Below the pieces are notes generated by a model. It made no database searches, was not told the origin of the DNA, and saw nothing but the letters and a program-made list of their open reading frames with translations. A program made the translations under genes and the position numbers. 64,000 nucleotides of DNA. Origin: Bacteroidetes bacterium UKL13-3 (GTDB lineage Bacteria > Bacteroidota > Bacteroidia > UKL13-3). Positions 6,242 through 15,559 of this stretch are shown in pieces. The stretch lies in the NCBI GenBank assembly GCA_001602415.1, contig CP012155.1, positions 620,001-684,000 of the forward strand. The letters are read 5' to 3'. Each line of letters opens with the position of its first letter. Position 1 is the first letter of the stretch.

Positions 6242-7321
6242 ATGAAACACGTTGCATTAAATGATTTACACGCTTCGCTTGGCGCAAAAATGATTGAATT
6301 TGCAGGATACAATATGCCTGTTTTATATACGAACCTTATACAGGAACACCTTGCCGTGAGAAACTCGGTGGGAGTTTTTGATGTAAGTCACATGGGCGAG
6401 TTTATGCTTAAAGGAGAGAAAGCTTTGGATTTAATTCAATTGGTTACGTCAAATGATGCTTCTAAATTGGTGGATGGAAAAGTGCAATACAGTTGCTTGC
6501 CGAATGATGAAGGCGGAATTGTGGATGATTTATTGGTATACCGCTTTTCGGCTGATGAGTATTACTTAGTAGTAAATGCTTCCAATATTGAAAAAGATTG
6601 GAACTGGATTAGCAAGCACAATACGTTTGGTGTGGAAATGAAAAATATGAGCGATGATTTGAGCTTATTTGCAGTGCAAGGTCCGAACGCCATTAAAGTG
6701 GTTCAGAAATTAACAAACGTTGATTTATCAACTTCTGAATATTATACGTTCACCACCGGAACAGTTGCCGGATGTGAAGATGTGATTATCTCCAATACCG
6801 GATATACCGGAGCAGGAGGATTTGAATTGTATGTGTGGAACAACGATGCCCGTAAATTGTGGGATGCCTTATTTGAGGCAGGTTCAGAGTTTGATATTAA
6901 ACCGATTGGCTTAGGTGCTCGTGATACCTTGCGTTTAGAAAAAGGTTTCTGTTTGTACGGAAATGATATCAATGATACCACTTCACCTATTGAAGCCGGT
7001 TTAGGTTGGATTACCAAGTTCACTAAAGACTTTATTAAATCGGATTATCATAAAGGTTTAAAAGAAAATGGAGTGGCTAAAAAGTTGGTAGGATTTGAAA
7101 TGTTGGAGCGTGGCGGTATTCCTCGTCAACACCATACCATAAAAGATGCTTCAGGAAATGTAATTGGTGAAGTAACTTCCGGAACACAATCGCCATCGTT
7201 GAACAAAGCTATTGGTATGGGATATGTAGCTACGGCACATTCAAAAGTTGACAGTGAAATTTTCATTGAAATTCGTGATAAACAAATTAAAGCTAAGGTT
7301 GTAAAAATTCCTTTTTTATAG
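6242..7321 (+). CDS. gcvT: Aminomethyltransferase (glycine cleavage system T protein)
   Basis: Transfers the methylene group from the aminomethyl-lipoyl H protein to tetrahydrofolate and releases ammonia. 359 residues, typical for GcvT. The N-terminal GCV_T domain includes '[13 protein letters not shown]' and '[11 protein letters not shown]'. The mid-protein substrate-binding segment '[14 protein letters not shown]' and the C-terminal barrel with '[20 protein letters not shown]' are clear. Other glycine cleavage genes (gcvH, gcvP) are not in the window. Confidence 0.97.
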
Positions 7322-7794: not shown

Positions 7795-8148
7795 ATGCTT
7801 AAGTATATAATTTTATGCATGTATGTCTTACTCTCTAACAACTATCTTAGGGCGCAATCCATTGATGCAAAAGATAAATGGAAGTTGGTAAAACCTGGGA
7901 TGAGTGAACCGCAACTAAAACAACTCATAGGGGAGCCTACGCGCTTTGAACCCTATACCACCGTTCGTTACAATACTTTTGATACATCTGTATATTGGCG
8001 CTATCCCGATGAGAAAATAGTTGTGGTCACCAATCATTTAGTGGAAAGAATTGAACACAACCGACAACAATTGCTTATCTTCATACAACAACACGCGTCC
8101 AAAAAAGATAAGGACGGGTTAATCATTATCAGCCATGGAACAAAATAA
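7795..8148 (+). CDS. Small exported protein, BamE/SmpA-like motif
   Basis: 117 residues. A hydrophobic signal peptide spans about residues 1-20 (ending 'LRAQ'). The mature part carries 'WKLVKPGMSEPQLKQLIGEP', which matches the W-x-V-G-M-x-x-x-x-V/L-x-x-L-x-G-x-P pattern of the small SmpA/OmlA/BamE-like fold. The last 14 bases overlap the start of comB (ATG at 8135), indicating an operon. Whether it takes part in outer membrane assembly cannot be told. Confidence 0.75.
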   Translation: MLKYIILCMYVLLSNNYLRAQSIDAKDKWKLVKPGMSEPQLKQLIGEPTRFEPYTTVRYNTFDTSVYWRYPDEKIVVVTNHLVERIEHNRQQLLIFIQQHASKKDKDGLIIISHGTK

Positions 8149-8869
8149 ACTCGAAGTTGTACTCACACCCGCATTGTTGCCATTGTATGAAGCACATGGA
8201 AAAATAGTTGTGGTGATTGATATTTTGCGAGCTACTTCATCTATGTGTGTAGCTTTTCATACGGGTGTCACAAAAATTTTACCCGTTTCTACTCCCGAGG
8301 AATGTCGCTTGTTTAAAGACTTTGATTTTTTGTGCGCGGCCGAACGAAATGCCATTAAAGTACAAGGTTTTGATATGGGAAATTCACCGTTTGAGTTTCA
8401 AAATCCATTAATCAAAGATCGCAATATTGCCTTTACGACTACCAACGGAACGAAGGCCATTAAAGCAGCCAAAGAGCAAGGTGCAGCAGTAGTTGCCATT
8501 GGTTCCTTTCTTAATTTAAATGCAATGGCTAAGTGGTTGGTAAAACAACAAAAGTCGGTGTTGTTGGTATGTGCGGGTTGGAAAGATAAATACAATTTGG
8601 AAGACACCTTATTTGCCGGAGCGCTGGTGAATTTGCTGAAGAACGATTTTACGATTGAATGTGACTCCGCATTATCGGCCGGATTATTATACGAAACAGC
8701 TTCTGCAAACCTGGAAGCAGTTGTGCGCAAATCTTCGCATGCACAACGATTCAAATTAACATCCATTCATGAGGACGATGTGCAGTTTTGTTTGCAACAC
8801 AATACCATGAATCTAGTGCCTGTGATGCAAGGAGAGTATATTGTTTGCCCGAGCCAGGTGGCGGTGTAG
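8135..8869 (+). CDS. comB: 2-phosphosulfolactate phosphatase
   Basis: Dephosphorylates 2-phosphosulfolactate to sulfolactate; first known from coenzyme M synthesis, and widespread in bacteria where the pathway is less clear. 244 residues, full length. Family segments include 'VVVIDILRATSSMC', 'LCAAERNAIKVQGFDMGNSP', 'TTTNGTKAI' and 'CAGWKDKYNLEDTLFAGAL'. The last 28 codons (8786-8869) are present again at 9536-9619 as a detached copy differing only at synonymous positions, so the 3' end of this gene has been through recombination. Confidence 0.93.
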   Translation: MEQNKLEVVLTPALLPLYEAHGKIVVVIDILRATSSMCVAFHTGVTKILPVSTPEECRLFKDFDFLCAAERNAIKVQGFDMGNSPFEFQNPLIKDRNIAFTTTNGTKAIKAAKEQGAAVVAIGSFLNLNAMAKWLVKQQKSVLLVCAGWKDKYNLEDTLFAGALVNLLKNDFTIECDSALSAGLLYETASANLEAVVRKSSHAQRFKLTSIHEDDVQFCLQHNTMNLVPVMQGEYIVCPSQVAV

Positions 8870-8879
8870 GGGGAATTCG

Positions 8880-9401
8880 CTATTCAACAATTGTTATTCG
8901 AAATTTGCTTAATCTAACGGGAGGGGTTAATGATTGTAAGATTACACCTCCTACTTCGGTTGAAACATAAAATACGGGTAATAATAAAAAAGCAGAGCCC
9001 AATAGCAAAAATTGATCGCGTGAAGAGTTGTTTATGAATACTCCGGTAAAAACGAGTGAGAGTTCTGTTAAAGCAGATGCAGTATAACCAATTTGTTTGA
9101 AGACTCGTTTTGCATTGTTTGGACGAAAACGAATTTCTTGTATATTATTAATGTTCAAATGTTCATGTCTTTCTGTAATCAGAATTGAATCCGATTGATA
9201 GGCAATGATTCTATCCTTTTTTATAGTTGAATCAAGGTTTGTTTTGATGAATACGTTTTTGATTTTTAAGCGATAGATTTTCTTTGAAATAGAGTCTTCT
9301 ATTTCAAGATAAGGCTTATTCCTGTAGTTCTGCGCATAAGTACTACTTGATTTTATAATAAGTAGGATGGAAAATAATATACACCAAGGAAAAAGTTTCA
9401 T
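8880..9401 (-). CDS. Exported protein of unknown function, inserted downstream of comB
   Basis: 173 residues with a signal peptide (about residues 1-23, ending 'STYAQ') and a hydrophobic segment around residues 130-155. The N-terminal mature half resembles a small beta-rich domain ('SILITERHEHLNINNIQEIRF'). No family recognised. It runs opposite to comB and its stop is 10 nt from the comB stop. A duplicated comB 3' end lies beyond its 5' side, so it appears to be cargo of a small insertion. Confidence 0.7.
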   Translation of the reverse strand: MKLFPWCILFSILLIIKSSSTYAQNYRNKPYLEIEDSISKKIYRLKIKNVFIKTNLDSTIKKDRIIAYQSDSILITERHEHLNINNIQEIRFRPNNAKRVFKQIGYTASALTELSLVFTGVFINNSSRDQFLLLGSAFLLLPVFYVSTEVGGVILQSLTPPVRLSKFRITIVE

Positions 9402-9535
9402 GGTTAGAATTTTGTTAGTAATGAGGCTGAGAATTATATAGAGAAAGGTAATAGATTATTCGGATTATGCAATGTTGAATCAGAATCTGATCCTAATTTA
9501 TTTTCTCTCAATATCCGATCTTTGACATGATGTAA

Positions 9536-9619
9536 TTTTGTTTGCAACACAATACCATGAATTTGGTGCCTGTGATGCAAGGGGAGTATATTGTTTGTCC
9601 GAGTCAAGTTGCGGTGTAA
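9536..9619 (+). pseudogene. Detached second copy of the comB 3' end
   Basis: 28 codons including the stop, translating to exactly the same last 27 residues as the intact comB (8786-8869). The 84 bases differ at 8 positions, all synonymous (for example CTA/TTG for Leu, TAG/TAA stops). The similarity also extends weakly a few bases outward on both sides. This is a remnant of another comB allele, left behind or brought in when the 8880-9401 gene was inserted. It has no start codon of its own. Confidence 0.9.
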
Positions 9620-9942: not shown

Positions 9943-12900
9943 TTGAATATACAGCAGTTATTAGGGATTTACAGCGAAAGTGATCGCTTTAAAACTATTG
10001 CAGGAAAGCTCGGTTCCCTCTCCCCGGTTAAGCTTCGCCTGACGGGATTGTTGGGTTCCATCGATGCCATTTTAGCCGCCTCATTATATACATTGCAACC
10101 ACGAACCAATGTGTTTGTGTTTAATGATGTTGATGAGGCGCGTTACTTTCATGCCGATTTAGAAAACCTGCTGGAAGGAAAAACAGTATTATTTTTTCCA
10201 TCTTCGTATCGCAGACCGTTTCAAATTTCGGGATTGGATAATGGTCTGGTGCTGGAACGTGCCGAAGTGCTCAATCGGTTAAACCAACATGCGCTCAATG
10301 GTGAGTTGGTCGTAACAACAGCCGAGGCATTAGCAGAGCTGGTGATTACCGAAAAAGATCTTTCGGCCAATACCTATGAGTTAAAAGTGGGTCATCCATT
10401 CGATTTGGAATTTTTCATCGACTTCCTCACTGAACATCATTTTGAACGCAGCGATTTTGTGTATGAAGCGGGACAGTTTTCAATACGAGGAGGTATTGTG
10501 GATGTATTCTCGTTTAGCAACGATATGCCCTACCGTTTGGAGTTGGATGGCGAAATGATTGAAAGCATCCGAACGTTTGATCCCAACACGCAGTTGTCTG
10601 TAAAAAGAGTAGATCGTTTTTTTATTATTCCCAACGTTCAAAAAGGAATAGATGATCATACCCGGCAAAACTTTTTTCAATACTTACCCAACGATACTAT
10701 TTTTTGGGCAAAGGATGTAAAATTATGCATCGAACAAATAGAAAAAGGTAGAGAGAAGGCACAAGTCATTTACGAAAAGTTTGAGCCTATGCCCGATCAG
10801 GAGGCATTGCAACCTGTAGATAGTATTTACGAAAACGAAAAGGTCATTCTCGATACCTTTAAAAAAAATAAGTTTGTAGAGTTTGGAACACGTTATCATT
10901 TTAAGGTTGATGAAACAATATCTTTTGCTACTTCGCCTCAACCGCTCTTTCATAAAAACTTTAAATTATTAATCCTTAATTTAAAAGATAATCAGCGCCA
11001 GCAACTCACCAATTTAATTTTTTCGGAGAGCAGCAGGCAAGTGGAAAGGCTGTATACCATTTTTGAAGATTTGGACAGAGAGGTGGAGTTTGATCCAATT
11101 TACTATGGTCTTTCCAAAGGGTTTATCGATCATGATTTGAAATTAGCGTGCTACACTGAGCACCAAATATTCGATCGTTTTTACCGCGGGCATACCAAAA
11201 ATTCTTATAGCAAAAGTCGCATCATTACCTTAAAAGAATTGAGGGATTTAAAACCCGGAGATTTTGTAACCCATATAGATCATGGGGTGGGAAAGTTTGC
11301 GGGTTTAGAAAAAATGGAAGTGAACGGACACATGCAGGAAGCTGTTCGCTTAATTTACCGTGATAATGATTTGTTGTATGTGAGCATAAACTCGTTGCAC
11401 AAAATTTCGAAGTATGTTGGTAAGGATGGAACAGAACCTCGCGTAAACAAACTAGGAAGTGATGCTTGGGAAAAACTTAAAACCAATACCAAGAAAAAAG
11501 TAAAAGATATTGCCCGCGATTTGATTAAGCTGTATGCCAAACGCAAAGCCCAAAAAGGCTTTCAATTTGCGCCCGATAACTATATGCAAATTGAGTTGGA
11601 AGCATCTTTTATGTATGAAGATACACCCGACCAAAGCAAAGCCACAGCTGATGTGAAGAAGGATATGGAAACGGATCAGCCAATGGATAGGTTGGTTTGT
11701 GGAGACGTTGGATTCGGTAAAACGGAGGTGGCTATTCGTGCAGCTTTTAAAGCCGTATGCGATAGTAAGCAAGTAGCCGTGTTGGTACCAACAACTATTT
11801 TGGCCAACCAACATTACCGAACGTTTAAGGAGCGGTTAAAAGATTTTCCGGTTACGGTAGATTATATCAACCGATTTAGAAGTGCAGCCGAACAAAAGGA
11901 AACGTTGCAAAAAGCCAAAGATGGTAAAGTGGATATTTTGATTGGAACACATAAGTTATTAAGTAAAGATATTAAGTATAAAGATTTAGGGTTGCTCATT
12001 ATTGATGAAGAGCAAAAATTTGGTGTAGCAGCTAAGGAAAAACTGAAAGCCATTAAAACGAATGTGGATACACTCACCCTTACAGCTACGCCCATTCCGC
12101 GTACATTACATTTTTCGTTAATGGGTGCTCGCGACTTGTCAATCATCAACACGCCTCCTGCCAACCGCCAACCTGTAACAACTGAATTACATGCATACAA
12201 TGATGAGTTGTTGCGGGAAATTGTAATGAATGAAATTGAGCGTGGCGGACAGGTATTCATGGTGCACCACCGTGTAAAAGATATTTACGAAATAGCCGAT
12301 AGGATTATGCGTATTTGTCCGGGAGTAAAAGTGGGTGTTGCACATGGTCAATTAGAAGGTGATAAGCTCGAAGACGTGATGATTAAGTTTATTGAAGGTG
12401 ATTATGATGTGCTGGTAGCAACTACCATTATTGAAAGCGGATTGGATATTCCAAATGCCAACACCATCATCATAAACAATGCGCAGATGTTTGGGTTGAG
12501 TGATATGCATCAGATGCGCGGACGTGTGGGTAGAACCAACCGAAAAGCATTTTGTTACTTGATGGTTCCAAGCATGCAAATGTTAACATCGGAAGCCCGC
12601 AGACGCTTACAAGCCATCGAAGAGTTTAGCGATTTAGGAAGTGGATTTAATGTAGCGATGCGTGATTTGGATATTCGCGGTGCCGGAAATTTATTAGGTG
12701 GCGAACAAAGTGGTTTCATCTCTGAAATTGGATTTGAGATGTACCACAAAATTTTAGATGAAGCCATTCAAGAACTGAAAGAAGATGAGTTCACCGAACT
12801 ATTTAAGGATGAACAAATGCACAAACTCGAATCGAAGGATTGTACTATCGAAACCGATTTTGAAGCATTGATACCTGATGAGTATGTGCGCAGTGTAAGT

Positions 12901-13293
12901 GAGCGCGTGAGTTTATATGGCGAGTTATCACGCTTGGAAACAGATGATGAATTGCTGGCTTTTGGTAACCAATTGCGTGATCGTTTCGGCTCCTTGCCAC
13001 AAGCAGTATTGGATTTATTAGAATTAATTCAATTGCGAACTGTTGCCAAAAAAATTGGTTTTGAAAAGTTGATTTTAAAGAATGCATCAATGGCGGCATA
13101 CTTCCCCGATGAGAAAAAACAGTCGTATTACCAGAGTGAGCAATTCAGTAAAATACTATTATTTGTGCAGCAAAATTCTCAACGGTGTAAAATGAAACAA
13201 ACACCTAAAAATTTGATTTTGGGTATTCAACATGTTTCGGGAATCGGGCATGCGAAGGGAGTGTTGGAGGACATGGTAAAAGCAATAAGCTAG
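9943..13293 (+). CDS. mfd: Transcription-repair coupling factor
   Basis: Displaces RNA polymerase stalled at DNA lesions and recruits UvrA. 1116 residues, full length. In order: UvrB-homology N-terminal region; CarD-like RNA polymerase-interacting domain ('LKPGDFVTHIDHGVGKF', about residue 435); superfamily 2 helicase core with Walker A 'GDVGFGKTE' (about 588) and 'IIDEEQKFG'; TRG and C-terminal UvrA-binding domains. The start is TTG at 9943: TAG precedes it immediately in frame, and the next in-frame Met is inside the conserved UvrB-like part. Confidence 0.97.
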   Translation: MNIQQLLGIYSESDRFKTIAGKLGSLSPVKLRLTGLLGSIDAILAASLYTLQPRTNVFVFNDVDEARYFHADLENLLEGKTVLFFPSSYRRPFQISGLDNGLVLERAEVLNRLNQHALNGELVVTTAEALAELVITEKDLSANTYELKVGHPFDLEFFIDFLTEHHFERSDFVYEAGQFSIRGGIVDVFSFSNDMPYRLELDGEMIESIRTFDPNTQLSVKRVDRFFIIPNVQKGIDDHTRQNFFQYLPNDTIFWAKDVKLCIEQIEKGREKAQVIYEKFEPMPDQEALQPVDSIYENEKVILDTFKKNKFVEFGTRYHFKVDETISFATSPQPLFHKNFKLLILNLKDNQRQQLTNLIFSESSRQVERLYTIFEDLDREVEFDPIYYGLSKGFIDHDLKLACYTEHQIFDRFYRGHTKNSYSKSRIITLKELRDLKPGDFVTHIDHGVGKFAGLEKMEVNGHMQEAVRLIYRDNDLLYVSINSLHKISKYVGKDGTEPRVNKLGSDAWEKLKTNTKKKVKDIARDLIKLYAKRKAQKGFQFAPDNYMQIELEASFMYEDTPDQSKATADVKKDMETDQPMDRLVCGDVGFGKTEVAIRAAFKAVCDSKQVAVLVPTTILANQHYRTFKERLKDFPVTVDYINRFRSAAEQKETLQKAKDGKVDILIGTHKLLSKDIKYKDLGLLIIDEEQKFGVAAKEKLKAIKTNVDTLTLTATPIPRTLHFSLMGARDLSIINTPPANRQPVTTELHAYNDELLREIVMNEIERGGQVFMVHHRVKDIYEIADRIMRICPGVKVGVAHGQLEGDKLEDVMIKFIEGDYDVLVATTIIESGLDIPNANTIIINNAQMFGLSDMHQMRGRVGRTNRKAFCYLMVPSMQMLTSEARRRLQAIEEFSDLGSGFNVAMRDLDIRGAGNLLGGEQSGFISEIGFEMYHKILDEAIQELKEDEFTELFKDEQMHKLESKDCTIETDFEALIPDEYVRSVSERVSLYGELSRLETDDELLAFGNQLRDRFGSLPQAVLDLLELIQLRTVAKKIGFEKLILKNASMAAYFPDEKKQSYYQSEQFSKILLFVQQNSQRCKMKQTPKNLILGIQHVSGIGHAKGVLEDMVKAIS

Positions 13294-14688: not shown

Positions 14689-15225
14689 AATTTGAAATTT
14701 CCGTTTGTTGCAAATGCGTATTCAATAATATGCATTCACTTTGTATGATGATGTAAAATTTTATGATGAACCATTATTGAGAGATACAAAAACGAATCAT
14801 ATATTTTTTTATGTACAAAAAAATATACTCTAAAAATCTTTACGAATACATCTCAACTAATTTCGATTTTTCTTTTTTTCTTTTTGCATAAAACTTATAT
14901 GCTACGAATTTTAAATCGCCAAAATGCTGAAGATTACTGTAAAATTAAGCTCTTACAAGCTTTTGTGTTTAAGTATGTATGATAATTTAATTTGCGAATT
15001 TCAAAAAAGGTATAACTGTTTGCATTTCAGGTAAAAGAAAATAATCACATTTTTGTTGATTGTATGATTGGTGGAGATGCCAATAAAATAAGGTGTTTAC
15101 ATGTTGTGTTTGCAGTTATCAACAGTTTTATGTTGTAAGTTTTTAGTGCTGATACTGAACAAGTACTTGAATATTATAAACACTCTTATAACTTTGTTTT
15201 CGTAATCAATCAAATTTTTAAAAAC
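14689..15225. other. AT-rich intergenic region upstream of the H1-like gene
   Basis: 537 bases with no credible reading frame. The right end carries the H1-like gene promoter (15167-15196). The rest is AT-rich with T and A tracts (for example 14866-14884). A structured RNA or long leader is possible, but no known fold was recognised. Confidence 0.4.
15167..15196 (+). promoter_or_regulatory. TTG-N19-TAnnTTTG promoter of the H1-like gene
   Basis: TTG (15167-15169), a 19-nt spacer and TAACTTTG (15189-15196) form a complete Bacteroidota-type promoter, the clearest in the window. It gives an AT-rich leader of about 25 nt before the ATG at 15226, typical of a strongly expressed gene. Confidence 0.75.
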
Positions 15226-15504
15226 ATGGCAACTAAAAAAACAACCAAAAAAGCAGCTCCTACAAAATCAGCTGCTCCAAAGAAGGCTGCTCCTAAAAAA
15301 GCTGCTGCTCCAAAAAAGGCTGCTGCTAAGAAAGCTGCTCCAAAGAAAGCTGCTCCTAAAAAAGCTGCTCCTAAAAAAGCTGCTGCTAAGAAAGCTGCTC
15401 CAAAAAAGGCTGCTGCTAAGAAAGCTGCTCCTAAAAAGGCTGCTGCTAAGAAAGCTGCTCCTAAAAAAGCTGCTGCTAAGAAAGCTGCTCCTAAAAAGAA
15501 GTAA
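15226..15504 (+). CDS. Histone H1-like Lys/Ala/Pro-rich DNA-binding protein
   Basis: 92 residues made almost only of Lys, Ala and Pro. The sequence is a run of AAPKK and AAAKK pentads after a short Thr/Lys-rich N-terminus, as in the C-terminal tail of eukaryotic H1 and bacterial Hc1/Hc2-like proteins. Such very basic, disordered proteins bind and compact DNA. The repeat also exists at DNA level (15-base units, often paired as AAAKK-AAPKK), so copy number could change by slippage. It has a strong promoter and its own terminator, consistent with high expression. Confidence 0.85.
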   Translation: MATKKTTKKAAPTKSAAPKKAAPKKAAAPKKAAAKKAAPKKAAPKKAAPKKAAAKKAAPKKAAAKKAAPKKAAAKKAAPKKAAAKKAAPKKK

Positions 15505-15523
15505 TCTTTTAGGAAACGAAATC

Positions 15524-15559
15524 AAAAGTCCTGCATCTTGTTTGCGGGACTTTTTTTTT
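15524..15559 (+). terminator. Rho-independent terminator of the H1-like gene
   Basis: Stem 15524-15534 pairs with 15544-15554 (one G-U pair), with a nine-base loop and a run of T to 15559. It lies 20 nt after the H1-like stop codon. Confidence 0.85.

Follow-up and report, generated by a model that had tools for sequence, protein, structure and literature searches.

Diverged 3' ends of comB on either side of a small gene in a Bacteroidota genome, and similar layouts at three other genes

How does a gene come to be followed, beyond a single small gene, by a second copy of its own 3' end that differs from the first only at synonymous sites? The question is raised by comB in the 64-kb window analysed here (G000:C1:620001-684000), part of a single-contig genome of 3.24 Mb that was compared with relatives from the Bacteroidota, mostly metagenome bins. 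The gene, encoding 2-phosphosulfolactate phosphatase (PF04029, Pfam E 6.7e-70), is intact at window positions 8135-8869 on the plus strand, and comB was found in 61 of the 64 genomes of the family. Its functional 3' end, with the stop codon TAG (allele A, 8786-8869, plus strand), recurs on the same strand at 9536-9619 as a headless remnant with the stop codon TAA (allele B). The initial annotation had described 84 bp repeating the last 28 codons of comB with eight differences, synonymous throughout, and the alignment confirms both points: the copies align from stop to stop with 0 gaps, all 8 of the 8 differences, TAG/TAA included, are synonymous, and both ends translate to FCLQHNTMNLVPVMQGEYIVCPSQVAV followed by the stop. 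The gap-free match is slightly longer than this (8781-8868 against 9531-9618, 90% identity) and ends there; its leftmost 27 bp are identical between A and B. Chance is ruled out as its origin by the blastn E value of the pair, 1e-30 to 1e-31, and this is the longest two-copy direct-repeat family found within the window. A repeat of another kind, a 15-bp tandem array, is located at 15211-15527 (reported as 15 overlapping 104-nt copies).

Between the two ends lies a gene on the minus strand (8880-9401) for a predicted exported protein of 173 aa, signal-like at its N-terminus and with hydrophobic segments in its C-terminal part. Its GC content is 0.316, against 0.415 for comB. The protein has no Pfam family and no relevant NCBIfam family, and a profile search recovered remote relatives only, in 10 other genomes of the taxonomic family. 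Since it is thus a member of a small family of exported proteins, sparsely distributed (11 of the 64 genomes, including this one), the single exported-protein gene noted in the initial annotation can be regarded as real. A single-sequence search at E 1e-4 gave no match in 394 other genomes of the class, searches of plasmids and viral contigs gave 0 matches, and the gene is absent from the same-genus genome, G001. In genus g2, a gene of similar size that lies downstream of comB, close to rng/OmpA, was considered as a source and rejected: its pairwise similarity to the inserted gene is not significant (shuffle Z about 3), and it is also not adjacent to comB. The whole insert of 0.75 kb holds a single ORF, which is not an integrase or recombinase, and RNA families, terminators and promoters were sought in it with nothing notable found. 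The spacer at 9402-9535, with the far (illegitimate) junction, is unrelated to the comB sequence upstream of the repeat; past the repeat, the sequence upstream of the right copy has no similarity to comB. The similarity that the two comB copies share downstream, an AATTCG motif, is not significant.

The divergence of the two ends, judged from their sequences, supports the view that they are alleles from different lineages, at roughly the distance that separates one species from another. Between A and B the Nei-Gojobori dS is 0.58 and dN is 0, and the excess of synonymous change is significant (Fisher P 5.6e-6); either copy differs from G001 by a dS of 1.0-1.6. The eight differing sites were polarised with one outgroup genome, G001, whose ComB is 79% identical. 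It matches B at four sites, A at two, and neither at two, which places four changes on A and two on B with two sites ambiguous (six informative sites, one outgroup); changes therefore fell on both branches. If B had been unselected since the split, about 20-30 changes per 84 bp would be expected, as derived from the synonymous rate of the A branch, and the observed number is only 2-4 (predictive P 1e-4 to 9e-3); B has therefore mostly evolved as a working comB end, like A. Together with the three parallel loci described below, these results uphold the earlier claim of two alleles rather than a local duplication. An old tandem duplication of the comB end and its neighbour, after which the second copy decayed, is improbable: a neutral copy should show the larger number of changes, and the bias towards synonymous differences recurs at typA and at a DUF5103 gene, although the tandem duplication of a gene end with a small gene does happen in this genome (C1:1161587-1164325). 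There, three related genes of a lipoprotein-like type (72-83% over the first ~211-240 bp) stand in tandem, and the end of the preceding 171-aa ORF is repeated between two of the array genes (66 bp, 95%).

Which of the two ends is the resident one was approached through the downstream neighbour, mfd, which is intact at 9943-13293 on the plus strand, so that it is B that faces mfd. The order and orientation of the two genes are the same in G001, where polysaccharide-related genes fill the 19.7 kb between comB and mfd; in genus g10, where mfd is also downstream of comB, the two are 4.1-4.2 kb apart and other genes separate them. Because these genomes differ in both spacing and gene content, the interval is evidently variable. 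No remnant of a comB end was found before mfd in G001, and no second comB end was found 1-13 kb downstream in the comB loci of the relatives. B is probably the resident end and A, probably the incoming allele, would have come in with the inserted gene, since B is slightly nearer to G001 and adjoins a gene that follows comB in the congener too; that G001 lacks the inserted gene, and that few genomes of the family have a member of its protein family, points the same way. The initial annotation had proposed that a foreign comB end arrived with the gene and the resident end was left behind, and this direction has gained indirect support in three ways: B differs from the congener at 13 sites and A at 15 (four against two of the polarised sites), mfd lies next to B, and the right end of typA, discussed below, carries the same ASA ending as the congener.

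That the locus is an artefact, two strain haplotypes joined end to end during assembly, is hardly credible. Many of the related genomes are metagenome bins, but this genome is one contig of 3.24 Mb, the divergence between end copies (dS 0.3-1.5 across the loci found) is far above that of strains that co-assemble, the right junction offers no shared sequence to join on, and the downstream order is backed by the congener. On the other side of comB, gcvT (window 6242-7321) shows 83-88% identity to other genera against 76% to G001, a pattern that suggests either that the gene was replaced or that the G001 copy evolves fast.

The same layout, an intact gene followed by one or more unrelated genes and then by a headless 3' end, was found at three more genes when repeats and gene ends were scanned in 1.66 Mb of the 3.24-Mb genome, in stretches of 1264 kb and 400 kb; the repeats there are 86 to 209 bp long. 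The end of typA (C1:522301-524118) recurs at 521361-521479, on the far side of a RAYT-like gene with a Y1_Tnp domain, with six synonymous differences to one other. The left copy terminates in NASSQVTA, the right one in NATASA and the congener's typA in NMMASA, and behind both ends stands the same terminator, GCCTCGC...GCGAGGC, which is significant by comparison with shuffled sequence. The gene at 517250-518146, on the side of the right copy, is found downstream of the congener's typA as well. Directly upstream of typA lies a tandem repeat array of ~78 bp units (C1:524262-525500), readable in several frames. A second gene, at 1561058-1562326, which we assign by eye to the DUF5103 family, is followed by two stacked spare ends: the first, at 1558106-1558314, is preceded by HipA/HTH and PIN-type toxin-antitoxin genes, and the second, at 1556860-1557059, is separated from it by a 179-aa gene and has YefM-YoeB after it. 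The copies differ from one another by Sd:Nd of 13:2, 10:3 and 16:5, and the stacked ends look like the outcome of repeated arrivals at one gene. The third gene (854715-855242), located in a sugar locus, has no Pfam family and was taken by eye to encode an HTH protein; its end is repeated at 853204-853289, beyond an SLFN_AlbA_2 gene, with synonymous and other differences at 10:10 (dS 1.45, dN 0.15).

That four genes share the layout, with allelic ends and unrelated cargo, is a wider result than the one in the initial annotation. Since the layout is present at comB and three other genes, it seems to be a repeated way of adding small genes while the target gene stays unbroken. This genome has four target genes among about 1470 ORFs, against no clear case among 332 congener ORFs and 484 ORFs of other relatives, so that it may be enriched in such scars, but the difference is not significant. 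A 5' mirror image of the layout is seen at hpt (1032852-1033391; region 1032852-1034471), preceded by a broken copy of its first ~100 codons that is 92% identical over 299 bp and carries a stop and a frameshift; four 3' cases against this one 5' case are too few for a claim of bias. Other repeated gene ends were also seen. An ORF at C1:726111-727043 resembling a transposase, which we take by eye to be IS982-like, has its 3' terminal 128 bp repeated identically 12 bp downstream. In G001 (C14:158-6079), tandem small genes come after a T9SS-like gene of 902 aa, together with an ORF of 90 aa in which the 5' end of that gene is joined to its 3' end; this ORF is a collapsed copy of the gene.

The history that we favour, with somewhat better than even confidence, is an additive recombination, homologous inside the gene and illegitimate on the far side, which brought in a foreign comB end and a gene while the resident end was kept. 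A fragment from a related species, comprising the 3' part of its comB and the gene for the small exported protein, would have paired homologously within the resident comB on its left side, and on its right side would have been joined illegitimately at a point about 28 codons short of the stop of the resident comB. The product of this putative single step would be the resident 5' part of comB with a foreign 3' end encoding an identical protein, then the new gene, the headless resident end, and mfd. Such an insertion would be tolerated because comB stays intact. Similar additive events seem to have taken place at typA, the HTH gene and, twice, the DUF5103 gene. As to the route of uptake, comEC and dprA are present in this genome; as most bacteria have both, they do not prove competence, and they allow natural transformation without showing it. 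The genome also contains an Rhs-type array (C1:1902357-1912573) of partial copies with a common Rhs-like core, differing C-terminal parts and small genes after each, likely an orphan Rhs-CT/immunity array; as displacement of gene ends is already accepted for Rhs, this array was counted in favour of the additive reading.

The main rival to this single additive step is a history in two steps, in which the insertion exactly duplicated the comB 3' end and the left end was later replaced, through ordinary homologous recombination, by the allele of a related species, the right copy remaining frozen; we regard it as rather unlikely. Allelic exchange is common in bacteria, which supports such a sequence of events, and the same pattern of purely synonymous differences would result. 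It also has a named precedent in restriction-modification genes (Nobusato 2000, as cited in PMC3031569). However, two events would be needed at each of the four loci, and the 27 identical bp at the left of the comB repeat show no sign of a separate exchange boundary, although one may exist. Much less probable is a site-specific integrative element, or its remnant, that used the comB 3' end as an attachment site and carried its own synonymous 3' end. It would produce the same outcome, a target restored by a synonymous variant of its end, and to this extent the earlier comparison with integrating elements that restore their target stands; the likeness goes no further than the outcome, as an integrase-borne element is made unlikely by the absence of an integrase or recombinase from the 0.75-kb insert and by the other loci, where different targets are followed by unrelated cargo (Y1 transposase, AlbA_2 and toxin-antitoxin genes).

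Many genes gained by bacteria lie in small insertions without a recombinase, and how they enter harmlessly beside their neighbours is mostly unexplained. A headless gene end matching another allele is a directly readable scar of one route of gene gain: it marks the point of insertion and gives the divergence of the donor (the dS of 0.3-1.5 here), and such ends are searchable in any collection of genomes. More speculatively, and as a tentative suggestion only, small and often selfish genes (toxin-antitoxin pairs, RAYT-like transposase genes and single exported-protein genes) might travel between species joined to the 3' end of a conserved gene of the host; this end would serve as a portable homology arm and heal the gene on arrival. 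Repeated arrivals would stack the old ends, amounting to a recombinase-free, cassette-like gain of genes beside housekeeping genes.

The scar can be compared with several known systems. Prophage e14 and phage 21 at icd require an integrase and a fixed att site; there, as here, a synonymous version replaces the 3' end of the target and the old end is found at the far side, whereas the insert at comB has neither an integrase nor a fixed att site. Homology-facilitated illegitimate recombination (HFIR), described in S. pneumoniae, A. baylyi and P. stutzeri, usually deletes recipient DNA of about the size of the inserted DNA (PMC3240628). It resembles the comB case in that one homologous anchor and one illegitimate junction add unrelated DNA beside an allelic exchange, and the allelic sequence expected on one side of the foreign DNA is represented by the left comB copy (dS 0.58, dN 0); it differs in that a recipient segment is lost there, while here the comB end is kept as a second copy and mfd is intact. 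Insertion with long target duplication (Nobusato et al. 2000, from the Kobayashi group, as cited in PMC3031569) likewise leaves small, often selfish genes that lack their own recombinase flanked by long direct repeats of the target. Such repeats flank the insertions here too (84-88 bp at comB, 86 to 209 bp at the other loci), but they are diverged alleles rather than copies of one resident target, unless one copy was replaced later. In the 2000 study the repeats were reportedly interpreted as target duplications made at insertion. For T6SS effector-immunity arrays and for Rhs, the proposal is that recombination in the conserved upstream part admits a new module and displaces the old 3' end downstream as an orphan (PMC5361080; for Rhs C-terminal displacement, Jackson 2009 as cited therein). 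An old 3' end downstream of the added genes is found at comB, typA, the HTH gene and the DUF5103 gene, and repeated events stack the remnants there as they appear to have done at DUF5103. The targets in those arrays are polymorphic toxins with immunity genes, whose ends differ in function, whereas at comB, typA, DUF5103 and HTH the ends specify identical or almost identical residues, and target and cargo have no relation to each other. The additive recombination favoured here would be akin to HFIR, to long target duplication and to T6SS/Rhs displacement.
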